This document shows positions 13,066 to 35,263 of a stretch of DNA of 35,889 nucleotides, in pieces. The stretch is from Gallionellales bacterium RIFCSPLOWO2_02_FULL_57_47 (GTDB taxonomy: Bacteria > Pseudomonadota > Gammaproteobacteria > Burkholderiales > Gallionellaceae): NCBI GenBank assembly GCA_001801175.1, contig MGWZ01000045.1:709-36597 (forward strand), written 5' to 3'. Each line of letters starts with the position of its first letter. Positions within the stretch are counted from its first letter, which is position 1. Both the position numbers and the translations under genes were made by a program. Under the pieces are notes generated by a model that did no database searches, was not told the origin of the DNA, and worked only from the letters and a program-made list of their open reading frames with translations.

Positions 13066-14624
13066 TGCTGCTATCGCAAGCCGCGCAGGTGCTCAACGGC
13101 CGTCTGGCCGGACCTGATGTGCGCTTCGCTGCGGTCTCGACCGACAGCCGGAAAATAATGGCCGGCGATCTGTTCATCGCGCTGCGCGGCGAACATTTCG
13201 ACGGCTGCGAGTTTGTCGCAACCGCGATGCAGTCCGGTGCCGCAGCAGCGATGGTCAACGCGGACAGCTACAGGATCGAGGATAGAGGAGCGAGGATCGA
13301 GCAAGAAGCCGGGAGCGATGCTCCCCCCTCAATCCTCAATCCTCAATCCCGAATCCTGAATCCTGATTTCCCGATCCTGCTCGTGGAAGATACCCGCATC
13401 GCGCTGGGGCAATTGGCAGCGTATTGGCGCAGGCAGTTCGATATTCCGCTGGTGGCGATCACCGGCAGCAACGGCAAGACCACGGTCAAGGAAATGCTTG
13501 CCGGCATCCTGCGGGAAGCGGCAGGCAGCGACGAAGCGGTATTGGCGACCAGGGGAAATTTGAATAACGATATCGGCATGCCGCTGACGCTGTTGCAACT
13601 GAACGCGCAGCATCGCTACGCGGTGATCGAGATGGGCATGAATCATCCCGGCGAAATCGATTATCTGACGCGCATTGCCGCACCGGATGTCGCGCTGATT
13701 ACCAACGCCAGCGGCGCGCATCTGGAAGGGCTGGGCTCGGTGGAAGCCGTGGCGCGTGCCAAGGGGGAGATATTTGCCGGGCTTAAGAGCCATGGCGCAG
13801 CGGTGATCAACGCCGATGATGCGCATGCGCCGCTGTGGCGCACTCTCGCAGAGGCACATCAATTGCTCGAATTCGGCCTGGATATCAACGCCGATGTGAG
13901 CGGGACGTGGCATCCAAACAATGGTCATCCGAACGGTTACGGTTTGCAGCTCGAAGTGACTGCGCCGCAGGGAAAGTTTGCCGTCAGATTGCAGGTGCCC
14001 GGTGTGCACAACGCGCGCAACGCATTGGCCGCCACGGCGGCGGCAAGCGTGCTGAACGTGCCGCTGGAAGCCGTCGTTGCGGGTCTGGAAAAATTCAGTG
14101 GCGTGGCCGGGCGCTTACAGCGCAAGGCGGCGCGGCATGGCGCGACCTTGATCGACGACACCTACAACGCCAATCCCGCCTCGCTACGCGCCGCGATCAG
14201 CGTGCTGGCCCAAAGCGGTGCAGGAAAGCCCGGCGGCAGGCGCGTGCTGGTACTGGGCGATATGGGCGAACTGGGCGAAAACGCCGCCGCCTTCCATGCT
14301 GAAATCGGCAGCGAAGCGCGCCGCGCCGGGATTGAAAAACTTTATGCGCTGGGTCCGCTGAGCGGCAACGCGGCGCGCGAATTCGGCAGCGGCGCGCAAC
14401 ACTTCGAGCGTATCGAAGATTTGCTGGATGCCTTGGAAAAGGAACTGGACGCGGACACTACCGTGCTGGTGAAGGGTTCGCGCTTCATGAAGATGGAGCG
14501 CGTGGTGGAATATTTAGTAGTAGGGCGGGACACACCCGCCGCTGCTTCGAACGTTGAAATGGCGGGTGTGACCCGCAAACCGGCGGGTGTGACCCGCCCT
14601 ACGGGAGTCAATAAATGTTATTAG
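13062..14624 (+). CDS. murF: UDP-MurNAc-tripeptide:D-Ala-D-Ala ligase MurF with in-frame heptamer element and repeat-derived C-terminus
   Basis: Start [17 protein letters not shown] overlaps murE stop; [25 protein letters not shown]; insert [34 protein letters not shown]. Confidence 0.95.
13272..13366. repeat. Heptamer-arm inverted element inside murF
   Basis: Left arm AGGATCG AGGATAG AGGAGCG AGGATCG AG (13272-13301); right arm TCAATCC x3, CGAATCC, TGAATCC (13329-13363); core hairpin GGGAGC-GAT-GCTCCC. Confidence 0.9.
14520..14602. repeat. GTAGGGCGGG(A/T)CACACCCGCCG palindrome at murF 3' end
   Basis: 22-nt arms 14520-14541 and 14581-14602 complementary at 21/22 positions, plus partial third copy 14561-14576. 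Confidence 0.9.
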
Positions 14625-15700
14625 CGCTCACACAATGGCTGGCACAGGACATCCGGTTTTTCAGCGTGTTCAATTACATCACGCTGCGCGCCGTGATGGC
14701 GGCGATGACCGCGCTGTTCATTTCATTTCTGGTCGGGCCGGCGATGATACGCAAACTGGCCGCCTACAAGATCGGGCAAGCGGTGCGCAGCGATGGGCCG
14801 CAAACCCATCTGGTCAAGGCCGGCACCCCGACGATGGGCGGCGCACTGATCCTGACCTCGATCGTAATCACCACCCTGCTGTGGGGCGATTTGCACAATC
14901 ATTACGTGTGGGTGGTGCTGCTTTCCACGCTCGGTTTCGGCGTGATCGGCTGGGTGGACGATTACCGCAAGGTGGTTCATCGCAACCCCAAGGGTCTGTC
15001 GGCCAGGGCCAAGATGTTCTGGCAATCCATTATCGCGCTGATTGTCGGCGCCTATTTATGGAATGTCGCCAGCCTGCCCGCGCATACCGAACTCATCGTG
15101 CCGTTCCTGAAGTTTCTGGTGCTCCCGCTTTCGGCGTTCCTGTTTATCGCGCTGACCTATCTGGTCATCGTCGGCACCAGCAACGCGGTGAATCTGACCG
15201 ACGGGCTGGACGGGCTGGCGATCATGCCCACCGTGCTGGTAGGCGGCGCGCTGGCGCTATTTGCTTACGTGGCGGGCAACGCGGTGTTCTCGAAATATCT
15301 CGGTATCCCGTACATCCCGGGTGCGGGCGAGCTGGCGATATTCTGCAGTGCGATTGCCGGCGCAGGGCTGGCTTTTCTGTGGTTCAACGCCTATCCCGCC
15401 GAAGTGTTCATGGGCGATGTCGGCGCGCTGGCGCTCGGCGCGGCGCTCGGCACCGTGGCGGTGATCGTGCGCCAGGAACTGGTGCTGTTCATCATGGGCG
15501 GCGTGTTCGTGGTCGAGGCGGTCTCGGTGATGATCCAGGTGGCCTCGTTCAAGCTCACCGGCAAGCGCGTGTTCCGTATGGCGCCGCTGCACCATCACTA
15601 CGAGTTGAAGGGCTGGAAAGAGACGCAGGTCGTGGTGAGGTTCTGGATCATCACGATGATATTGGTATTGATCGGTTTGGCGACGTTGAAGTTGAGGTAG
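14615..15700 (+). CDS. mraY: Phospho-MurNAc-pentapeptide transferase MraY
   Basis: 361 aa; [32 protein letters not shown]. Confidence 0.97.
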
Positions 15701-15710
15701 AGATGAGCAG

Positions 15711-15802
15711 GTAGCTCGTAGCAAGTAGCAGGTAGCTAATAAGGTGCGCGCTTCGCGCGCGGCAATTTAAAGCTACTGGCTACCCGCTACAAGCTACAAG
15801 CT
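15711..15802. repeat. Heptamer-arm inverted element between mraY and murD
   Basis: GTAGCTC GTAGCAA GTAGCAG GTAGCTA (15711-15738) / GCTACTG GCTACCC GCTACAA GCTACAA GCT (15772-15802), core hairpin TGCGCGCTTCGCGCGC. Confidence 0.9.
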
Positions 15803-15815
15803 TTTAGGAGATACA

Positions 15816-17309
15816 TTGAAACAATGGGCTGACAAAAAGGTGCTGGTGCTCGGTCTCGGTGAGACCGGCCTGTCGATGCTGCGCTGGCTGAGTGCGCAGG
15901 GCGCGCGCCTGCGCGCCGCGGACAGCCGCAGCAAACCGCCCGGTGCAGCCGATGCGGAGCGCTATGTCGATGCCGGACAGATTTTTTGCGGTGCATTCAG
16001 CGACGCACTGCTGGAAGGGATTGAATTGATCGCCATCAGCCCCGGTGTGCCGCTGCGCAACGCAGTTGTGGCAACAGCAGTGGCGCGCGGCATTCCGGTC
16101 GTCGGCGACATCGAGCTGTTCGCGCAACAGCTCAGGATTCAGGATTCAGGATTCAGGGCTAAAGTCATCGCCATCACCGGCGCGAACGGCAAGACTACCG
16201 TGACCAGCATGGTGGAACATTTGTGCAGGGCGGCGGGCAGGGATGCAGTCGCGGCGGGCAACATCTCCCCGGCGGTGCTGGACGTCGTGCTGGAGCGCAA
16301 CGCCAAACAGCCGGAAATATGGGTGCTGGAGCTGTCCAGCTTTCAACTGGAAACCACCTTCAGCCTGAATGCGGATGCCGCCACGGTGCTGAATGTCAGC
16401 GAGGATCATCTGGACCGCTACGCCGGCATGGATGAGTACGCGGCGGCCAAGGCGCGCATCTTTCAGGGCAGCGGCGTGCAGGTGCTGAATCGCGATGATG
16501 CGCGCAGCATGGGCATGGCAATGCCCGGGCGTAAGGTGGTGACATTCGGGCTAACCCCTTCCGGCCTCCCCTTGTCAGGGGAGGAGAATGACGCTTGGGG
16601 TATTGAACATGATGCGAGCGACATCTGGCTGATGCAGGGAAAACAACGCTTGCTCAAGGCGGGCGAGTTGCAGGTCGCCGGGTTGCACAATGCCGCCAAT
16701 GCGCTGGCCGCGCTCGCGCTATGCCGCGCGATCGATTTGCCGCTGCCGGTGCTGCTCGAAGCGCTGCGCAGCTTCAGGGGCTTGCCGCACCGGGTGGAAC
16801 GCGTGGCCGAGATCGGCAATGTCACCTATTACGACGATTCCAAGGGCACCAATGTCGGCGCGACCATTGCCGCGCTGCAAGGGCTGGGCGGTATGACACG
16901 GTGCGCGCAAGCGTCCGGTGCGGGAGTGCCGCCCTCCCGCAAAATAGTGCTGATCGCGGGCGGCGAGGGCAAGGGGCAGGATTTTGCGCCGCTCAATCCG
17001 GTTGTGGCGATGCATGCCCGTGCGGTGGTATTGATCGGGCGTGACGCAGCAAAGATTGCATCCGCCCTGGATGGTTGCGGTGTGACGGTGGTGCGCGCCA
17101 AAGACATGAGCGACGCCGTGCAACAGGCTTCGCGTCTGGCGCACAGTTGCGACGCGGTGCTGCTGTCCCCGGCCTGCGCCAGTTTCGACATGTTCCGCAA
17201 TTACGCGCATCGCGCCGAAATGTTTGTGCAGGCAGTGCATGAGCTAACTCCCCCCAACCCCCCCTTGTCAGGGGGAGAGGCAATCAAGGAGGGCGCATGG
17301 TCTCGCTAG
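15816..17309 (+). CDS. murD: UDP-MurNAc-L-Ala:D-Glu ligase MurD (TTG start) carrying several small in-frame repeat insertions
   Basis: 497 aa; [50 protein letters not shown] aggag upstream of TTG. Confidence 0.95.
16134..16157. repeat. Single heptamer arm AGGATTC x3 in murD
   Basis: AGGATTCAGGATTCAGGATTCAGG, read as RIQDSGFR. Confidence 0.85.
16565..16584. repeat. Palindrome CCTCCCCTTGTCAGGGGAGG in murD
   Basis: 8-bp perfect stem, 4-nt loop, read in frame as GLPLSGEE. Confidence 0.8.
16896..16941. repeat. Half-copy of the ACACGG...GTGCGGGAG cassette in murD
   Basis: ACACGGTGCGCGCAAGCGTCCGGTGCGGGAGTGCCGCCCTCCCGCA versus rsmH cassette at 8549. Confidence 0.75.
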
Positions 17310-18517
17310 CACCCGCAAGGAGTACGCCGAAGGGTGCCCGGGAGGTTCCCCCCCACCCTTTCGCAGTCAAGACGCGCACCCGCACGCCGCAGGCTCAATT
17401 CGACGAGTTGCTGCTATGGGTGTTGACCGGTTTGATCGCGCTCGGCCTGGTGATGGTGTATTCATCCTCGATCGCCACGGCGGAAGCCAACAAATTTACC
17501 GGTTACCAGCCGACGTATTATCTGCTGCGGCATGGGGCGTACATCTGTGTGGGCTTGATTGCAGCGTTGTTTGCCTTTCAGGTGCCGGTGCAGATGTGGC
17601 AAAGCAACGCGCCCTACCTGTTCCTGTTCGGGGCAGCCTTGCTGATGCTGGTGCTGATTCCGGGTCTCGGGCGCGAAGTAAATGGCAGCCGCCGATGGCT
17701 GTCTCTTCTTGTCATCAATCTGCAACCTTCCGAATTGATGAAGCTGTTCGCGGTGCTGTATGCCGCCGACTATACGGTACGCAAGGGCAAGGTCGGCCAC
17801 CTGTTCAGCAAGGCTTTCGTGCCGATGTTCGCGGTGATGCTGCTGGTTGGCTGGCTGTTGCTGCTTGAACCCGACATGGGTGCGGTCGTGGTGATCTGCA
17901 CGATCGCGCTGGCCACGCTGTGGCTGGGCGGCTTCAACCTCAGTGTGTTTGCCGGCCTGATCGTGGCCTTGCCGCTGGGGTTTGCGGCATTGACCGTTTT
18001 TTCGCCCTACCGGATGCAGCGCGTCATCGGCTTCATGGATCCGTGGGCCGATCCTTACGGCAAGGGCTATCAACTGAGCCACGCGCTGATCGCCTTCGGG
18101 CGCGGCGAATGGTTCGGCGTGGGGCTGGGCGGCAGCGTGGAAAAATTGTTCTACCTGCCGGAAGCGCATACCGACTTCCTGATGGCAGTGATTGCGGAAG
18201 AGCTCGGCTTGGTCGGCGTGGCAGCGGTAATCGCGCTGTTCGCGCTGCTGGTGGTGCGTGCTTTCCAGATTGGCCGCTATGCCGCGTTTCTCGAGCGCAA
18301 CTTCGCCGCGCTGGTTGCGCAGGGCATCGGCGTGTGGATCGGCATCCAGGCGGTGATCAACATCGGCGTGAATATGGGCGTGTTGCCGACCAAGGGATTG
18401 ACCCTGCCGTTCCTCAGCTTCGGCGGCAGCGGCCTGGTGGTGAACTGCATTGCGGCCGCATTGCTGCTGCGAGTCGATTATGAGAACCGGCGCATTGCGC
18501 GGGGGTTGCCGATATGA
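17297..18517 (+). CDS. ftsW: Lipid II polymerase / cell division protein FtsW
   Basis: 406 aa; multiple TM segments, [42 protein letters not shown]; overlaps murD 3' end. Confidence 0.96.
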
Positions 18518-18643
18518 ATCAGGAATCAGGAATCAGGAATCAGGAATCAGGGGTTCTGTTGCGGCTGCGCCGCAGTCTTGATATATCGTTCCGCGCAGCG
18601 GCACACAACAATCTGATTCCTGATTCCTGTTCTCTGATTCCTG
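18518..18643. repeat. Heptamer-arm inverted element between ftsW and murG
   Basis: ATCAGGA x4 + ATCAGGG (18518-18552) / TGATTCC TGATTCC TGTTCTC TGATTCC TG (18614-18643). Confidence 0.95.
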
Positions 18644-18659
18644 TGCCGGGAGGCACATT

Positions 18660-19739
18660 ATGAGCAGCTCGATCCTCATCATGGCGGGCGGTACCGGCGG
18701 ACACATCATGCCGGGACTGGCCGTCGCCGACGTGCTGCGCGCGCAGGGCTGGCAGGTTGCCTGGCTGGGAGCGCCGGGCAGCATGGAGGCGGAACTGGTG
18801 CCGAAGCACGGTTATGAAATGGCATGGGTACGCTTTTCGGGTGTGCGCGGCAAGGGTCCTTTACGCAAGCTGATGTTGCCGTTCAATCTGCTGACCGCAT
18901 TGTGGCAAAGCGCAGCCGCAATATTCCGCCACCGGCCCGATGTGGTGCTGGGCATGGGCGGTTACATCACTTTCCCGGGCGGGCTGATGGCGGCATTGCT
19001 GCGCCGCCCGCTGGTGATCCACGAACAGAATTCCATCGCCGGGTTGAGCAACCGGGTGCTGGCGCGATTCGCGCGAAAAGTGCTGAGCGGTTTTCCGGAT
19101 GTGTTGCCCAAAGCCGAGTGGTGCGGCAATCCGGTGCGCAATAGCATCGCAAATTTGCCGGAACCCCGGCAGCGCTATGCAGCGCGTAGCGGCAAGCTGA
19201 ATGTGCTGGTAGTGGGGGGCAGCCTGGGAGCCAGGGCGATCAACGAAGTCATGCCGCAGGCGCTCGCATTGCTGCCGGAAGATGTGCGTCCCAATATTCT
19301 GCACCAGGCAGGAAAACAGCATTTCGAGGCAGTTCAAAAGTTATACCGGCAGGCCGGAATACCGGCCGAGATACGCCCCTTTCTTGACGACATGGCCGCC
19401 TGTTACGCGAATGCCGATGTGGTGATTTGCCGCGCCGGCGCACTGACCATAGCGGAACTGGCGGCGGCGGGCGTGGCGAGCATATTGATCCCGTTTCCGT
19501 TTGCGGTGGACGATCACCAGACGCATAACGCCCGATTCCTTAGCGAGCAGGGCGCGGCTGTGCTGTTGCCGCAGAGCGAATTGAGCGCGGAAAAACTGGC
19601 GCAGTTGCTGCGCGGGTTGATGGAAGGCGAACGGGGCCGCGAAAAATTGCTGGCGATGGCACTACAGGCGCGCAGCCTGGCAAAGCGAGATGCGGCGCAA
19701 CAAGTGGCGCAGGTATGCGCAGGACTGGCAGAGGCATGA
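18660..19739 (+). CDS. murG: UDP-GlcNAc:undecaprenyl-PP-MurNAc-pentapeptide transferase MurG
   Basis: 359 aa; [44 protein letters not shown]. Confidence 0.97.
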
Positions 19740-19757
19740 AATTGGCAAATACATTCA

Positions 19758-19840
19758 GTCCACGAAAAACACGAAAAGCACGAAAGCAACATCTCGCGCT
19801 GCCAACGGTTTGTTCGTGTCATTTCGTGTGTTTCGTGGAC
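19758..19840. repeat. Inverted element with 9-nt arm repeats between murG and murC
   Basis: GTCCACGAAA AACACGAAA AGCACGAAA (19758-19785) / TTCGTGTCA TTTCGTGTG TTTCGTGGAC (19813-19840). Confidence 0.9.
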
Positions 19841-19855
19841 AAGTGAGGCTCCAGG

Positions 19856-21343
19856 ATGAAACATAAAGTCAAACACATCCATTTCGTCGGTATCGGCGGC
19901 TCCGGCATGAACGGCATTGCCGAGGTACTGCTCAATCTCGGCTTTCAGGTGAGCGGCTCGGATCTGAGTGCCAACAGCGTGACCAGACGCCTCAAGAAAC
20001 TCGGTGCTACCGTGTATCTTGGCCATGACGAACAGCATCTGACCGCTGCCGATGCGGTGGTGGTTTCGACTGCCGTGAAACCGGACAACCCCGAGGTGAT
20101 GGCGGCGCGCGCGCGCCGCATTCCGGTCGTTCCGCGCGCGATGATGCTGGCCGAGTTGATGCGCTTGCGCCAGGGTATCGCGGTGGCCGGTACGCATGGC
20201 AAGACCACGACCACTTCTCTGGTTTCCAGCGTGCTGGCCAGGGGCGGCTTCGATCCGACCTTTGTGATCGGCGGCAAGCTGAACAGCAGCGGCACCAATG
20301 CCAGGCTGGGCACCGGCGAATTCATCGTGGTCGAGGCGGACGAGTCGGATGCATCGTTTTTGTATCTGCAACCGATACTTGCGGTGATCACCAATATCGA
20401 TGCCGACCACATGGAAACCTACGGGCACGATTTCGGGCGGCTCAAGCAGGCGTTCGTGGATTTCGTCGAGCATTTGCCGTTCTATGGCATGGCCATGCTG
20501 TGTATCGACGATGCCAATGTGCGCGAGATTCTGCCGCGCATCAGCAAGCCGGTGATGACTTACGGGTTCAGCGAAGACGCACATATCCGCGCGGTGAATG
20601 TGCGCCATCAGGGCGGGCAGATGCACTTTACCGCGCAGTGCAGGCAGAACGGAACCCCTAAGGATCTGGACATTACGCTGAATCTGGCCGGGATGCACAA
20701 CGTGCTGAACGCGCTGGCGGCGATTGCGATCGCCCTGGAAGTGGGTGTGGCAGATGACGCGATTGTCGCGGCGCTGGCGGAATTCCAGGGTGTGGGCAGG
20801 CGGTTCCAGCGGTACGGTGAGATCCCTCTCCCCAACCCTCTCCCGCAAGCGGGCGAGGGGGCAAACGTCGCTGCCGCAGGCGGCAGCTTCACTTTAATTG
20901 ACGACTACGGACATCACCCGGTGGAAATGCAGGCCACGCTGGCCGCGGTGCGCGGCGCATTTCCCGGCAGGCGTCTGGTGCTGGCGTTCCAGCCGCACCG
21001 TTTTACCCGTACCCGCGACCTGTTTGAGGATTTCGTGAAAGTGCTGTGCAGCGTCGACGCGCTGGTGCTGGCGGAAGTGTATGCGGCAGGGGAACCTCCG
21101 ATAGTCGCGGCGGACGGGCGCGCGCTGATGCATGCCTTGCGGGTGGCGGGGCAAAACGAAGCCGTGTTTGTCGAAAATATACAGGATATGCCGCAGGCCA
21201 TCATGCAGATGGCGCGCGATGGCGATGTGGTCGTCACGATGGGGGCGGGTTCGATCGGCGGCATACCGAATAAGTTGCTGGGAAGAAATGACGGCGATGC
21301 AACGGGGCAAATGCCGGTGTTTCAGAAGACAGAGGACAGATGA
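19856..21343 (+). CDS. murC: UDP-MurNAc:L-Ala ligase MurC with in-frame CCCTCTCCC insertion and element-derived C-terminus
   Basis: 495 aa; [35 protein letters not shown]; insert [14 protein letters not shown]; tail FQKTEDR*. Confidence 0.96.
20824..20867. repeat. CCCTCTCCCC-AACCCTCTCCCGCAAGCGGGCGAGGGGGCAAACG palindromic repeat in murC
   Basis: Stem CCCTCTCCCGC-AA-GCGGGCGAGGG; same family as the ftsL copy. Confidence 0.85.
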
Positions 21344-21472
21344 TAGTGTCAAAAGATAGAAGACAGAAGACAGAAGACAGAGGCTTGGTTGCCGCTGGGC
21401 GGCAATCTTTTGATAAAGATGCGGCGGAGCCGTTCGACACTCTGTCCTCTGTCCTCTGTCCCCTGTCATCTG
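21324..21472. repeat. Heptamer-arm inverted element spanning the murC/murB junction
   Basis: AGAAGACAGAGGACAGATGATAG...AGAAGACAGAAGACAGAAGACAGAGG / TCTGTCCTCTGTCCTCTGTCCCCTGTCATCTG; core TTGCCGC-TGG-GCGGCAA. Confidence 0.95.
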
Positions 21473-22425
21473 AATTGCGCGGAACGTTGAGCCACAACGT
21501 GCCGATGAGCAGGCACACCAGCTGGCGTGCAGGCGGCGTGGCGGAGCGCATGTACCAGCCGGCCGATCTGGACGATTTGCTGGTGTTCCTGCGCGGCTTG
21601 CCGGCCGACGAGCAACTGTATGTGGTCGGGCTAGGCAGCAACTTGCTGGTGCGCGACGGCGGATTGCGCGGCACGGTGCTGCTGTTGCATGGCGCGCTAT
21701 GTGAACTGCGCCTGGAAGATGATGGCAGCGTTTATTGCGAGGCAGGGGTGCCCGGTGCCAAGCTGGCGCGCTTCGCCGCCCTGCACAATTTGCGCGGCGC
21801 GGAATTCTGTGCCGGAATTCCCGGCACGGTCGGCGGCATGCTGGCGATGAATGCGGGCTGCTACGGCAGCGAGACCTGGGAAAAGGTGTTGCGCGTGCTG
21901 GTGGTCGACCGGAGCGGTGCGTTGCGTGAACGGACCCCGGCAGATTATGAGATCGGTTATCGGCACGTAACGAGGATCGAGGATCGAGGAGCGAGGAGCG
22001 AGGGAGTCGGAGAGCGATCTGGTTTTTCTCAATCCTCAATCCCCGATCCTCGATCCTCGGAAGAATTCTTCGTCGCCGCATGGTTGAAGTTCGAAGCGGG
22101 CGACGGCGACATTGCGCGGCAGGAGATCAAGGCGCTGCTCGGTAAGCGCATCGCCAGCCAGCCGCTGAATTTGCCCAATGCCGGATCGGTATTCCGCAAT
22201 CCGCAAGGCGATCATGCTGCGCGGCTGATCCAGCAATGCGGGCTGAAGGGCAGGCGCATCGGCGGCGCGCAGGTGTCGGAGAAACACGCCAACTTCATCG
22301 TGAACACGGGCAAAGCGACGGCGGCGGACATCGAGAACATGATTAACGAAGTGCAGGCAGTGGTGCAGCAGCAGACCGGCATCGACCTGCATCCGGAAGT
22401 AAGAATAGTTGGCGAGTACAAATGA
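21340..22425 (+). CDS. murB: UDP-N-acetylenolpyruvoylglucosamine reductase MurB, N-terminus and one loop element-derived
   Basis: 361 aa; [55 protein letters not shown]; conserved part begins about [18 protein letters not shown]. Confidence 0.93.
21971..22060. repeat. Heptamer-arm inverted element inside murB (90 bp, in frame)
   Basis: CGAGGAT CGAGGAT CGAGGAG CGAGGAG CGAGGG / CTCAATC CTCAATC CCCGATC CTCGATC CTCGG. Confidence 0.93.
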
Positions 22426-23366
22426 TGAATACTGAATCCCGAATCCTGAATCCTGAATCCTTCGGCAAGGTCGCGGTATTGTTCGGCGGCAAATCCGCCG
22501 AGCGCGAGGTGTCGCTGAAAAGCGGCGCGGCGGTGCTGGTGGCGCTGTTGCGCAGCGGGGTGGATGCGCACGCGTTCGACCCTGCGGTGCAGGACCTGCA
22601 GGCATTGCGCGACGAGGGATATGACCGCGCTTTCATTGCATTGCACGGGCGTTTCGGCGAGGACGGCACGGTGCAGGGCGCGCTGGAATTGCTGGGCATT
22701 CCCTATACCGGCAGCGGCGTGCTGGCTTCGGCGCTGGGCATGGACAAGTGGCGCACCAAGCTGGTGTGGCAGGCGGCGAAATTGCCCGTGCCGAATTATG
22801 CACTGCTGGACGAGCACAGCGACTGGGCAGGTGTCGTGCGGCAACTGGGCTTGCCGCTATTCGTCAAACCGGCCAATGAAGGTTCCAGCGTCGGTATCAG
22901 CAAGGTGAAAAAGGCCGGCGAATTGCGCAGCGCTTATCTGGCAGCCGCCAAACACGACAAACTGGTGCTCGCGGAAAGTTTCATCGGCGGCGGCGAATAC
23001 ACCGCGGCAATTCTGGGTGACCAGGCGTTGCCGGTGATCAAGATCGAACCGGCCAATGAGTTCTACGACTACGAGGCGAAATACCTGCGCGATGACACGA
23101 GTTACCTGTGTCCAAGCGGCCTGGGCGCGGCGCAGGAAGCCGAAATGCAGCGGCTGGCCAGGCAGGCCTTCGCGTTGATCGGCGGGCAGGGTTGGGGACG
23201 GGTGGATTTTCTGATGAGTGAAACGGGCCAGCCGTATCTGCTCGAAGTGAATACTTCGCCGGGCATGACCGATCACAGTCTGGTGCCGATGGCGGCACGC
23301 CATGCGGGGATGAGTTTCGAGCAACTGGTGCTGCGCATACTGGAGTTGGCGGGGATTAACAAATGA
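22422..23366 (+). CDS. ddl: D-alanine--D-alanine ligase with heptamer arm at N-terminus
   Basis: 314 aa; [54 protein letters not shown]. Confidence 0.96.
22432..22460. repeat. Single heptamer arm at start of ddl
   Basis: CTGAATC CCGAATC CTGAATC CTGAATC C. Confidence 0.85.
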
Positions 23367-23420
23367 TTTTGCGAGCATCCGCGTTGCAGATTGCCTGCTT
23401 ACCCCATTGCACGTTTGTCC

Positions 23421-23455
23421 TTTCTCCCGCTTGCGGGAGAGAGTTAGAGAGAGGG
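23421..23455. repeat. Palindrome TTTCTCCCGCTTGCGGGAGAGA upstream of ftsQ
   Basis: TCTCCCGC-TT-GCGGGAGA stem; trailing GAGAGAGGG lies at SD distance from the ftsQ ATG. Confidence 0.75.
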
Positions 23456-23459
23456 ATGT

Positions 23460-24182
23460 ATGTGGAATAACGCACTATTGATACGCAATACCGCCAACGC
23501 GCTGATCATTTTTAGCGTGCTGGCGATGTTATATGGCGCAGCCTGGTACGTGATGCATTTGCCGGGATTGCTGCCGCTGCAAAGTGTGCGCCTGAGTGCG
23601 CCTCCGCAACGGGTTTCCGCAGCGGAGTTGTTGCGGGTGATGCGCAGCGAAGTGCGCGGGAATTTGTTTACCGTGAATATCGAGCGTCTGAGACAGTCAT
23701 TTGAAAAATTGCCGTGGGTGCGCAGCGTCAGCATACGCCGTGAATTTCCACATCGCCTGGCGGTGCAATTGGAAGAGCATCAGGCAATGGCGCGCTGGAA
23801 CAACAGCGCGCTGGTGAATCAGCAGGGTGAAACGTTTGTTGCGGGCAGCGACCAGGCGCTGCCGGGTTTTATCGGGCAGGAAGGGACATCGGCCGAGATT
23901 GCGCAGCACTATGCCCGATTCAATCAGCAGCTTGTTGCGCTGGGCCTGACGGTGGAGCAAGTCGCACTGTCGCCGCGGCATGCCTGGCAACTCCGCCTGA
24001 ATAACGGCATGGTGCTGGAGCTGGGACGCGAGGACATGCAGCAACGTTTGGCAAGGTTCGTGGCGGTTCAGAGGACAGAGGACAGACGACAGATGACAGA
24101 GGACAGAAATACGGTGAAATATGTGGATTTGCGTTATCGCAACGGGTTTGCAGTCAGGCGGGCTACAAATGATAAAGGTTAG
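23460..24182 (+). CDS. ftsQ: Cell division protein FtsQ with in-frame heptamer arm near C-terminus
   Basis: 240 aa; TM segment, POTRA-like LPWVRSVSIRREFPHRLAVQLEEHQAMARWN, VKYVDLRYRNGFAVR. Confidence 0.92.
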   Translation: MWNNALLIRNTANALIIFSVLAMLYGAAWYVMHLPGLLPLQSVRLSAPPQRVSAAELLRVMRSEVRGNLFTVNIERLRQSFEKLPWVRSVSIRREFPHRLAVQLEEHQAMARWNNSALVNQQGETFVAGSDQALPGFIGQEGTSAEIAQHYARFNQQLVALGLTVEQVALSPRHAWQLRLNNGMVLELGREDMQQRLARFVAVQRTEDRRQMTEDRNTVKYVDLRYRNGFAVRRATNDKG

Positions 24183-24257
24183 GTCGGAGGAGGTGCTGGC
24201 TGATGAATGGAGACAAACTTCTGTCCTCCGTCATCTGTCCTCTGTCTTCTGTCTTCT
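24071..24257. repeat. Heptamer-arm pair straddling the ftsQ end: left arm coding, right arm intergenic
   Basis: Left GAGGACA GAGGACA GACGACA GATGACA GAGGACA (24071-24105); right TCTGTCC TCCGTCA TCTGTCC TCTGTCT TCTGTCT (24220-24254). Confidence 0.93.
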
Positions 24258-24272
24258 GGAACGGAGCAAGCA

Positions 24273-25508
24273 ATGATTAGAAACAAGGAAAGCAAAAACC
24301 TGGTGGTCGGATTGGACATCGGCACGTCCAAGATCGTTGCCATCGTCAGCGAGGTCAAGCCGGACGGGACGCTCGAGGTGATCGGCATGGGGATGCACGA
24401 GTCTTCCGGCATGAAAAAAGGCATGGTGGTTAACATCGAAGCCACGGTGGGCGCGATCCAGCGCGCGCTGGAAGAGGCTGAGCTGATGGCGGACTGCAAA
24501 ATTCTTGAGGTGCATACCGGCATCGCCGGCAGCCATATACGCAGCATCAATTCGCGCGGCATGGTGAAGATCAAGGAAAAAGAAGTTGCCGCTGCCGACA
24601 TCGAACGCGTGATTGAGACTGCCAGTTCGATCAGCCTGCCGAGCGACCAGCAGATTCTGCACATTCTTGAACAGGAATTCAGCATCGATGGACAGGACGG
24701 AATCAAGAAACCGCTCGGCATGAGCGGAATGCGGCTGGATGCCGAGGTGCATATCGTCAGCGGCGCGGTAGCGGCGGTCCAGAACATCATGAAGTGCATC
24801 CATCGCTGCGGCCTGGAGGTCAACGAGCTGATTCTGCAACCATTGGCATCCAGCAAGGCGGTGCTTGCCGAAGATGAAAAAGAACTCGGGGTGTGCCTGG
24901 TGGACATCGGAGGCGGCACCACCGACATCGCGGTGTTCACCGGCGGGGCGATCAGGCATACCGCAGTGATACCGATTGCCGGAGACCAGATCACCAATGA
25001 CATCGCGATGGCCCTGCGCACCCCGACCCAGGACGCAGAAGACATCAAGATCAAGCATGGCTGCGCACTTCGCCAACTGGCAGATAGCGGCGCAATCGAG
25101 GTGCCCGGCGTGGGCGAGCGGGGTCCGCGCATGCTGTCGCGCCAAACCCTGGCGGAAGTGATCGAGCCGCGCGTCGAAGAATTGTATTCGCTGGTGCAGC
25201 AGGAGTTGCGCCGCAGCGGCTTCGAGGATTTGCTGTCATCGGGCATCGTGATCACGGGTGGCAGCAGCTCCATGCAGGGCATGGTCGAGCTGGGCGAGGA
25301 AATTTTCCATCTGCCGGTACGCCTGGGCGCCCCGAAATACGTCGGCGGCCTGTCCGATGTGGTGAAAACGCCGCGCATGGCGACCGGCGTGGGGCTGCTG
25401 TTGTATGGCCTGGAGCACCATCAACGCAGGGAAGAAACGCGCATGCAATCGAATTCGTTTGGCGATGTGCTGGCAAGGATGAAAACGTGGTTGCAGAAAA
25501 ATTTTTAG
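24273..25508 (+). CDS. ftsA: Cell division protein FtsA (ORF opens at 24207; in-frame upstream ATG possible)
   Basis: MIRNKESKNLVVGLDIGTSKIVAIVSEV; VDIGGGTTDIAVF; ITGGSSSMQGM. Confidence 0.97.
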   Translation: MIRNKESKNLVVGLDIGTSKIVAIVSEVKPDGTLEVIGMGMHESSGMKKGMVVNIEATVGAIQRALEEAELMADCKILEVHTGIAGSHIRSINSRGMVKIKEKEVAAADIERVIETASSISLPSDQQILHILEQEFSIDGQDGIKKPLGMSGMRLDAEVHIVSGAVAAVQNIMKCIHRCGLEVNELILQPLASSKAVLAEDEKELGVCLVDIGGGTTDIAVFTGGAIRHTAVIPIAGDQITNDIAMALRTPTQDAEDIKIKHGCALRQLADSGAIEVPGVGERGPRMLSRQTLAEVIEPRVEELYSLVQQELRRSGFEDLLSSGIVITGGSSSMQGMVELGEEIFHLPVRLGAPKYVGGLSDVVKTPRMATGVGLLLYGLEHHQRREETRMQSNSFGDVLARMKTWLQKNF

Positions 25509-25574
25509 AGGTTGGTAGTTTGCAGGGGGCACAGGGTTGTAGTTTTTCAGTAATTTTATATAAAGGAGACGGCG

Positions 25575-26744
25575 ATGTTTGAAATCGTGGAAGCACAAAC
25601 TCAGGAGGCTGTGATCAAGGTGATCGGTGTAGGTGGTTGCGGCGGAAACGCCGTGGACCATATGATCGAGCAGGGTGTGCAGGGAGTCGAGTTCATCGTC
25701 ATCAACACCGATGTGCAGGCTCTCAATCGCAGCAAGGCGCGCACCCAGTTGCAGATAGGCGCGGCCATCACCAAGGGCCTGGGCGCGGGTGCCAAACCGG
25801 CGGTCGGTCAGGCGGCGGCAGAAGAGGATCGCGTGCGCATCAAGGAAATGCTCAGCGGCGCGCACATGGTGTTCATCACTGCAGGCATGGGAGGCGGCAC
25901 CGGAACAGGCGCTGCGCCTATCATCGCGCAAATTGCCAAGGAACTGGACATCTTGACCGTGGCGGTAGTCACCAAGCCGTTTACCTATGAAGGCAATCGG
26001 ATGCGCTTCGCCAAGGCAGGTATCGAAGCGCTGCACGAGCATGTCGATTCGCTGATCATCGTGCCGAATTCCAAGTTGATGGAAGTGCTGGGCAATGATG
26101 TCACCGTGCCGGAAGCCTTCAAGGCCGCCAATGGCGTGTTGCAGGGCGCAGTGGCGGGAATTGCCGAAGTGATCAATGTGCCGGGTTTGATCAACGTTGA
26201 CTTCGCCGACGTGCGCACCGTGATGTCGGAAAACGGCATGGCGATGATGGGTTCGGCGATTGCCTCAGGCCCGGATCGCGCGCGCATTGCGGCTGAACGC
26301 GCGATTGCCAGCCCGTTGCTCGAAGATGTGGATATGACCGGCGCGCGTGGCGTGCTGGTAAATATCACTTCTTCAAGCCAGCTGAAACTGAAAGAAATTG
26401 ACGAGGTAATGGAATGCGTCAAATTTGCCGCAGAAGAAGCGACCGTGATCGTGGGTTCGGTATTCGATGAAACCATGGGAGACGAAATGCGGGTAACGGT
26501 CGTGGCGACCGGCCTCGGCGCACCGCTTGCGCGCAAGCAACCCAAGCCGGAGGTGGTGTATCGGGGTGAAGAAGCTTACCAGCGCACCGGTACGCATGAT
26601 GAGCCGATCTCCAACGTGAATTACGGGGAGCTTGATACGCCGACCATCATGAGGAGCGGGCGCAGGGCAGCGGTAGATGCGATGGAAAAATCCGGAGTGG
26701 ATACTTACGATATCCCGTCCTTTCTGCGCAAACAGGCGGATTAG
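25575..26744 (+). CDS. ftsZ: Cell division protein FtsZ
   Basis: 389 aa; GGTGTGAAP tubulin signature (GMGGGTGTGAAPIIAQ), C-terminal peptide YDIPSFLRKQAD; SD aaggaga. Confidence 0.98.
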   Translation: MFEIVEAQTQEAVIKVIGVGGCGGNAVDHMIEQGVQGVEFIVINTDVQALNRSKARTQLQIGAAITKGLGAGAKPAVGQAAAEEDRVRIKEMLSGAHMVFITAGMGGGTGTGAAPIIAQIAKELDILTVAVVTKPFTYEGNRMRFAKAGIEALHEHVDSLIIVPNSKLMEVLGNDVTVPEAFKAANGVLQGAVAGIAEVINVPGLINVDFADVRTVMSENGMAMMGSAIASGPDRARIAAERAIASPLLEDVDMTGARGVLVNITSSSQLKLKEIDEVMECVKFAAEEATVIVGSVFDETMGDEMRVTVVATGLGAPLARKQPKPEVVYRGEEAYQRTGTHDEPISNVNYGELDTPTIMRSGRRAAVDAMEKSGVDTYDIPSFLRKQAD

Positions 26745-26748
26745 ATGC

Positions 26749-26772
26749 AGGATCGAGGATTGAGGATTGAGC
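26749..26772. repeat. Single heptamer arm after ftsZ
   Basis: AGGATCG AGGATTG AGGATTG AGC. Confidence 0.8.
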
Positions 26773-34152: not shown

Positions 34153-35263
34153 GGTGGATTCTAATTCCAAGTGCACCATGTAAGAAATTAAGCGGACATG
34201 ATGAATAAGTCTTGATAGTGTGGGCAGTGCGACCCAACCACACTACAGGAGAAAGCCATCATGTCCTATGTACAGCTTACATCAGAAGAGCGCTATGTGA
34301 TCTACCATTTGAAGCTCTACCGGCTAAGTATCAGGGAAATCGGGCGGCGTCTTGGCCGCTCCCACACCACCATCAGTCGCGAACTCAAGCGCAATGGGCC
34401 GGCCTTCCCAACCTGGCCGTACTGGCATCAAGGCGCACACCAACAGGCCATGCAGCGCAGAAAGAAGCCGCGCCACTATCGGCGCCATGCCCATGCACCG
34501 CTGCGGCACTACGTCGAACGCAAACTACGCGACGAATGGTCGCCCGATGTTATTGCGGCAAAGCTGAAGCAGGACTATCCGGGCAATACCAAAATGCGCG
34601 TCAGCATCGAGACGATTTACCGCTGGGTCTACCGGGATACCAGTCAGGGTGGCCGGCTATTTCAATGTTTATGCCGATGCCACAAAAAGCGTCGCAGACA
34701 GCGTCGTTATGGGACGGGGCGTGGCCTGATACCTGGGCGAACCAGCATTCATTTGCGGCCTGATCTGGTCGCCACACGCCAACGCTTCGGAGACTGGGAA
34801 GGCGACACAATAGAAGGCGCAAAAGGCAGCGGGCACATCACCACGCATGTCGAGCGCAAAAGCCGTTATCTCATCGCCGGCAAGCTCGTCAACAAAACAG
34901 CGGCGGAGACAGCCCAAGTGGCCACCTCTGCGTTTGAGCGAGTACCCAAGACATTACGGCACACATTGACATTGGACAACGGTAAGGAATTTGCACGCTT
35001 CCGCGATATTGAAAGGGGCGCAGGGTTGACGGTTTATTTCGCTGCCCCTTACTCTGCATGGCAGCGCGGGACAAACGAAAATACTAATGGCCTGCTGCGA
35101 AGATATTTCCCGAAGGGCATGGACTTCAGAGCTGCTACCGAAAAATCACTTGCAGAAGTTGTGAAAAAACTGAATCATCGCCCTCGCAAGTGCCTAGGCT
35201 ACCGGACTCCTCATGAGGTCTTCATGGATGCTAAACGTGGTGCGATTGCAATGTGAATTCACC
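34153..35263 (+). mobile_element. IS30-family insertion sequence, about 1111 bp
   Basis: Terminal inverted repeats GGTGGATTCTAATTCCAAGTGCACC (34153-34177) and GGTGCGATTGCAATGTGAATTCACC (35239-35263), 19/25 complementary; encloses an IS30 transposase. Confidence 0.8.
34261..35256 (+). CDS. IS30 family transposase
   Basis: 331 aa; LSIREIGRRLGRSHTTISRELKRN HTH, FGDWEGDTIEGAKGSGHITTHVERKSRY, TLDNGKEFA, DDE-type end FAAPYSAWQRGTNENTNGLLRRYFPKG. Confidence 0.95.
   Translation: MSYVQLTSEERYVIYHLKLYRLSIREIGRRLGRSHTTISRELKRNGPAFPTWPYWHQGAHQQAMQRRKKPRHYRRHAHAPLRHYVERKLRDEWSPDVIAAKLKQDYPGNTKMRVSIETIYRWVYRDTSQGGRLFQCLCRCHKKRRRQRRYGTGRGLIPGRTSIHLRPDLVATRQRFGDWEGDTIEGAKGSGHITTHVERKSRYLIAGKLVNKTAAETAQVATSAFERVPKTLRHTLTLDNGKEFARFRDIERGAGLTVYFAAPYSAWQRGTNENTNGLLRRYFPKGMDFRAATEKSLAEVVKKLNHRPRKCLGYRTPHEVFMDAKRGAIAM

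Follow-up and report, generated by a model that had tools for sequence, protein, structure and literature searches.

The dcw cluster in the window, the whole 35,889-nucleotide stretch of DNA analysed here, is interspersed with tandem heptamer arrays, and we estimate a probability of about two in three that these are non-autonomous, MITE- or REP-like palindromic elements of several related families, filtered by selection to tolerated sites. Each element would comprise a purine arm of about 4.5 7-nt units (about 32 nt), a short hairpin core and a complementary pyrimidine arm. Copies would arrive by insertion without target duplication, as the sharp ends and the lack of target-site duplications in one family suggest, and would persist where they are tolerated, in tight operon junctions and in flexible loops or termini of essential proteins. 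Within proteins, where in-frame inserts occur in every genome examined, only frame-keeping, stop-free copies would survive. As tolerated sites are few, they would be refilled repeatedly by different families.

The host is an iron-oxidising, Gallionella-type betaproteobacterium, the relatives of its MurC (76–90% identity) being Gallionella, Sideroxydans, Candidatus Nitrotoga or Nitrosomonadales by name, and the genes from mraZ to lpxC follow the usual dcw order. Between positions 13,327 and 26,771 an exact lag scan detects 12 strict arrays of period 7 and one of period 9; across periods 4–13 only 7 and 9 are present in the window, and 20 dinucleotide-preserving shuffles gave no period-7 array. 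Tandem Repeats Finder (TRF) agrees on these arrays and picks up weaker second arms. A preliminary description, based on the letters alone, had placed period-7 arrays at these dcw loci and none in 1–13 kb or 27–36 kb of the window, and both statements hold. It had also proposed a constant architecture. The order of the arms is indeed constant across loci, purine-rich first and pyrimidine second, but ftsQ/ftsA is not a simple arm-core-arm element, because its arms (24069–24107 and 24223–24258) enclose real C-terminal FtsQ codons. Paired loci form hairpins, with folding z-scores of −2.6 to −11.2 against shuffles. The features are as follows.

13272..13366, + strand: in-frame hairpin within murF, with AGGATCG-type and CCTCAAT-type arms (lag scan, TRF); empty or different in relatives
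15710..15802, + strand: mraY/murD junction element, arms GTAGCNN, core GGTGCGCGCTTCGCGCGCGGC, hairpin z −4.5
16132..16157, + strand: single in-frame arm (TCAGGAT)n in the inter-domain linker of murD (lag scan)
18516..18643, + strand: ftsW/murG junction element, arms AGGAATC, two-hairpin core of family R1
18554..18611, + strand: R1 core (58 nt) within the ftsW/murG element (R1 search, 72.8 bits)
19759..19840, + strand: murG/murC junction element with the 9-nt unit CACGAAAAN (lag scan, hairpin fold)
21323..21472, + strand: murC/murB element, arms AGGACAG, R1 core
21382..21440, − strand: R1 core within the murC/murB element (R1 search, 52.7 bits)
21971..22059, + strand: in-frame murB loop element, arms AGGATCG/AGGAGCG, encoded peptide ...SSIPDPRSS
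22426..22461, + strand: single pyrimidine arm (TGAATCC)n that forms the N terminus of Ddl (lag scan)
24069..24107, + strand: in-frame purine arm (CAGAGGA)n near the 3′ end of ftsQ (lag scan)
24223..24258, + strand: pyrimidine arm (TCTGTCC)n in the ftsQ/ftsA gap (lag scan)
26749..26771, + strand: single arm (AGGATTG)n directly after the ftsZ stop codon (lag scan)

Six to seven of the ten loci overlap coding sequence wholly or in part (murF, murD, the murC/murB ends, murB, ddl and ftsQ), all in frame; the murC/murB element encodes the MurC C terminus and an N-terminal extension of MurB. The window also holds other C-rich palindromes of the CCCCTCTCCC...GGGAGAGGGG type (16555–16590, 17245–17285, 20821–20865 and 23400–23455), some of them within coding sequence and present in relatives too; in two relatives such a palindrome is the core between heptamer arms (L116, 12492; L121, 10029). 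An intact open reading frame at 34261–35256, IS30-family transposase-like by eye, lies just downstream of an argJ-like one.

We compared the window with 40 further dcw clusters from the same genus and with one collinear relative (L031), whose genes are 77–89% identical to it at the nucleotide level and which has no strict array in 21 kb. About a dozen sites recur: the murF interior, murF/mraY, mraY/murD, the murD linker, ftsW/murG, murG/murC, murC/murB, the murB loop, the ddl start, the ftsQ end, ftsQ/ftsA and ftsZ/lpxC. At these junctions and loops within proteins, some species have an empty site and others a filled one, usually with another heptamer, and units vary by species (AGGATCG, AGGACAG, AAGTGGG, GAGAAGG, GTGAAAC, GGACTGA and others). 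At the murF site, for example, other heptamers are present in L165, L174, L176, L178, L189, L190, L195, L201 and L202, and the murD linker holds CGACTNN heptamers in L033 and L039. Empty junctions are tight stop/start overlaps and filled ones contain at least five unrelated palindrome families. The mraY/murD junction measures 11 nt when empty, as in many relatives, and in relatives ftsW/murG has either unrelated palindromes or overlapping stop and start codons. About ten species share the 9-mer element at murG/murC, with its sequence and position conserved, so that some insertions must be old.

Elements of a different type (TTTCGGYG...CCGAAACC, or CGTTAGCGTTGGGGGAGACTC...) seem to insert along with a duplicate of the final codons of the gene upstream (ftsW RRIARGLP; mraY RFWIIT..LKLR), which leaves both gene ends intact. 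They are found at ftsW/murG in L170, L172, L178, L182, L184, L187, L190, L198 and L201, and at mraY/murD in L187, L201 and L202. A further repeat, GGTGRAACAACTAGCCATTCGACTAGGCTG...CAGCCAAGTCGCTGGTTAT, recurs at permissive loops (the murB loop of L180; murD of L174, 8427–8579).

The MurB loop illustrates both occupancy and frame-keeping. Among 41 genomes, nine have a loop of 30–36 nt (empty), three of 39–48 nt and 29 of 75–174 nt, and the length is a multiple of three in all 41. Where the insert lies, a solved MurB (PDB chain 9dtk_A) has only about five residues between two aligned blocks. Eighteen genomes have a strict heptamer array here and three have an unrelated CTCCCCTCTACCGC palindrome instead. 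Unit classes, as assigned by eye, are scattered on a species tree of eight concatenated dcw proteins (FastTree, without topology tests), where sister taxa often differ; given this scatter, we reject as a sole explanation that a single murB element was inherited vertically while its units gradually changed. Some neighbours (L197/L199 and L163/L164) clearly share one decaying murB element.

Dispersed copies with fixed ends are best seen in the R1 family, in which a 58-nt two-hairpin core lies between arms of about 34 and 32 nt. The core of the ftsW/murG element is 74–88% identical to five other loci of the genome, and the arms at the core matches displayed form a hairpin, mostly of AGGACAG units. 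Fifteen cores align over 62 columns as two GC hairpins and an AT-rich linker. A model of the core has 10–11 matches in the host genome, some of them opposite-strand readings of one element, and matches in 30 of 76 genomes of the genus, with up to 30 per genome; a search of 274 genomes of the class returned no strong match outside the genus, only marginal ones, and Rfam gave no match. In 39 R1 elements the modal purine arm is 34 nt and the pyrimidine arm 32–33 nt, with sharp ends CAG...CTG, and direct flanking repeats occur in 4 of the 39 against 3.4 expected from permuted pairs, that is, without target duplication. The core also occurs, in a few copies, with AGGACTG, AGGAATC or AGGATCG arms, and one copy (L242) has different units in its two arms. 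The ftsW/murG core of L179 is inverted relative to that of L165, either because the two were inserted independently or because the segment between the arms was inverted.

These properties bear on the possibility that the arrays are simple sequence repeats grown in situ by slippage, the mirror arms being made by hairpin-templated repair with no mobile element involved. Species do differ in the unit at one site, the two arms change together and some long arrays exist, all of which slippage would accommodate; a 58-nt core common to dispersed, unrelated loci and across species, a modal arm length with sharp ends, and periods of 7 and 9 only, rather than a spectrum, make it unlikely. The joint change of both arm units on a retained core or site could reflect either replacement or slippage followed by hairpin-templated repair, and probably both new-insertion replacement and such concerted repair occur. 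In L130 (12543–12799) and in contig C74 of genome G000 (bases 2–117), very long arrays of the heptamers GGATTCA or AGGACAG lie next to assembly gaps or contig ends, and their length is possibly underestimated.

It is also conceivable, if improbable, that the elements form a distinct class of mobile palindromes in which a novel activity rewrites the arms in concert and leaves the core as it is, producing complementary 7-nt (rarely 9-nt) arms of stereotyped length around varied hairpin cores. If so, arm sequence would be re-made rather than inherited, giving different units on the same core and site.

Returning to insertion of palindromic elements as the preferred reading, copies are found genome-wide: three AGGANNN units have 142 matches in the host genome. 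In a sample of 672 kb from 40 stretches of this genome, some picked for having matches, there are 33 strict arrays, or 0.49 per 10 kb, compared with 12 arrays in 13.5 kb of the dcw stretch, about 18 times the sample density (Poisson P about 1e-11). One relative (G041) has 13 arrays in 16.7 kb of dcw and 3 in 74 kb elsewhere (0.41 per 10 kb). The unusual dcw density claimed in the preliminary description is therefore borne out against the rest of the genome and in this relative, and its view of the repeats as mobile-looking palindromes of a known general type gains support from the genome-wide copies and from the empty and filled orthologous sites among collinear relatives, the two checks that it had proposed. 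Its concern that all relatives might carry identical sequences is answered by the differences among them, and its concern over assembly artefacts is countered by elements of the same kind in independent assemblies, some of them single-contig.

Because elements occur genome-wide, the dcw cluster is a concentration of them and not their sole home. Outside it, in the 672-kb sample, they lie in or adjoin housekeeping genes, whose names we read from translations: DNA polymerase III alpha, methionyl-tRNA synthetase, EPSP synthase, dihydrofolate reductase, GyrA, GuaA/GuaB, Pyk/Pgk/Gap, LipB, TruB and BioH. The cluster thus marks the far end of a broader distribution. Over half of the dcw loci are coding, and in the sample, on an informal count, many are coding or at gene ends. 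The unit of GTAGC-type elements includes TAG, and five of five such elements lie at junctions; stop-free units are found in coding DNA, as expected if the reading frame is the filter. The dcw enrichment may arise because insertion favours busy co-directional operons or because conserved genes retain copies better.

The same enrichment, seen in two genomes, could instead mean that the elements are REP-like regulatory hairpins kept by selection in dcw junctions because they uncouple translation or shield mRNA, their density reflecting function, and the stability of the hairpins and the many elements exactly between stop and start codons would fit. We judge this quite unlikely, since close relatives have overlapping stop and start codons at the same junctions, unrelated palindromes substitute for one another, and many copies sit inside coding loops or consist of one arm only. 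An influence on dcw expression, if any, would be secondary.

Arms have a median of four to five units and measure about 32 nt for units with GGG, with GG and with neither: the 14 arrays whose units lack any GG have a median arm of 33 nt, against 32 nt. As arms below about 19 nt escape detection at the threshold used, the length distribution is informative on its upper side only. These lengths weaken the view that G-quadruplex requirements fix heptamer repeats at four units. A G-quadruplex origin of the kind proposed for Xanthomonas and Nostoc, with four units for four G-tracts, would suit the unit number, the purine-rich arms and the circular dichroism (CD) data published for GGGAATC repeats (PMC4692102), but is very improbable here given that arm length is indifferent to GG, that most units have GG only and that 9-mer arms without G-tracts exist.

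Several points sit uneasily with mobile palindromic elements, which we nevertheless favour. The single-arm loci and ftsQ/ftsA misfit a simple arm-core-arm unit, some arrays reach 60–120 nt as slippage would give, the units are too different for one transposase reading arm sequence, and the strong concentration in essential genes is unlike pure selection against insertions. The mover would most likely be a trans-acting, single-strand enzyme that recognizes hairpins, a tentative suggestion. The genome has five to six copies of RAYT-type (Y1 transposase) genes. Stretches of 17–20 kb around them have no heptamer arrays, and their flanks hold other, mostly GTAG-type, repeats. Across 76 genomes, with kinship ignored, Y1 transposase copy number correlates with R1 (rho 0.38) and with heptamer arrays (0.44), IS110 with R1 (0.33) and genome size at 0.26–0.28. 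We therefore rejected the RAYT transposase as the mover, its flanking repeats not being heptamer arms and the correlation being only moderate; as IS110 correlates with R1 too, Y1 transposase is a weak lead only. A GTAG-type REP/REPIN palindrome (GTAGGGCGGG...CCCGCCCTAC) is present at the 3′ end of murF (14518–14600) and also flanks a RAYT-type gene in L134.

REP and REPIN elements with RAYT transposases are dispersed, non-autonomous inverted GC hairpins that make no target duplication. The R1 core resembles them in its two inverted GC hairpins, but the elements described here lack the GTAG foot, have heptamer arms and are absent beside RAYT-type genes. They share with MITEs in general the dispersed, near-identical copies with defined ends, whereas R1 lacks the target-site duplication of DDE-type MITEs. 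The STRRs of heterocystous cyanobacteria are tandem heptamers near start codons with a patchy distribution, but are direct repeats with one unit per genome and no core, and have no known mover. The TAACTGA repeats of Beggiatoaceae (PMC4679880) are likewise tandem heptamers near start codons, patchy and with no known mover; they differ in being direct and almost never inverted (one case in 170 sets), with one unit per genome and no core.

STRRs and Rickettsia palindromic elements (RPEs) had been named in the preliminary description as the nearest analogues. RPEs are palindromes of about 100–150 bp in several families that occur in frame in unrelated genes (PMC10969869), a habit also seen here. 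Their insertions are described as encoding a conserved peptide, whereas here the peptide follows the heptamer and varies by unit and site (RIEDRGS, RTEDRGQ, KWKVESGK, EKGEGRRE), and tandem heptamer arms do not figure in the RPE description (PMC10969869). Nearer are the convergent GGGAATC pairs of Xanthomonas. Rehm et al. 2015 (PMC4692102) describe GGGAATC/GGGGATT heptameric repeats in Xanthomonas and Nostoc with a four-unit preference, attributed to G-quadruplexes, and 70–75 convergent inverted pairs in each of two Xanthomonas genomes, 83% of them conserved in context. Those repeats share with ours the 7-nt tandem units, the preference for about four units, the convergent inverted pairs and the genome-wide dispersal. 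The Xanthomonas repeats are mostly between co-directional genes with no tie to known mobile elements, and the Xanthomonas and Nostoc repeats have one unit type per genome, where we find many, and a length tied to G-tracts, where ours is independent of them and most units lack the GGG. They are also under-represented in coding DNA and have no described counterpart of the R1 core; the elements studied here include in-frame copies in essential genes and show fast same-site turnover.

The architecture itself is therefore already known, as convergent heptamer pairs in Xanthomonas (PMC4692102) and as in-frame palindromes in Rickettsia (PMC10969869); a search of the open-access literature, which does not extend to subscription papers, found no description in Gallionella. 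What is new is the combination of heptamer pairs with in-frame invasion of essential genes, with many units in one genome, a definable core family, different arm units on one core, recurrent occupation of the same sites and an arm length independent of G-tracts. In a free-living bacterium, palindromes have repeatedly entered essential cell-wall and division proteins in frame and at the same loops; for MurB, MurF, MurD, Ddl and FtsQ this amounts to an insertion scan performed by nature in about 40 species. With the defined ends, core and many empty sites of R1, the spread of heptamer repeats becomes directly testable.
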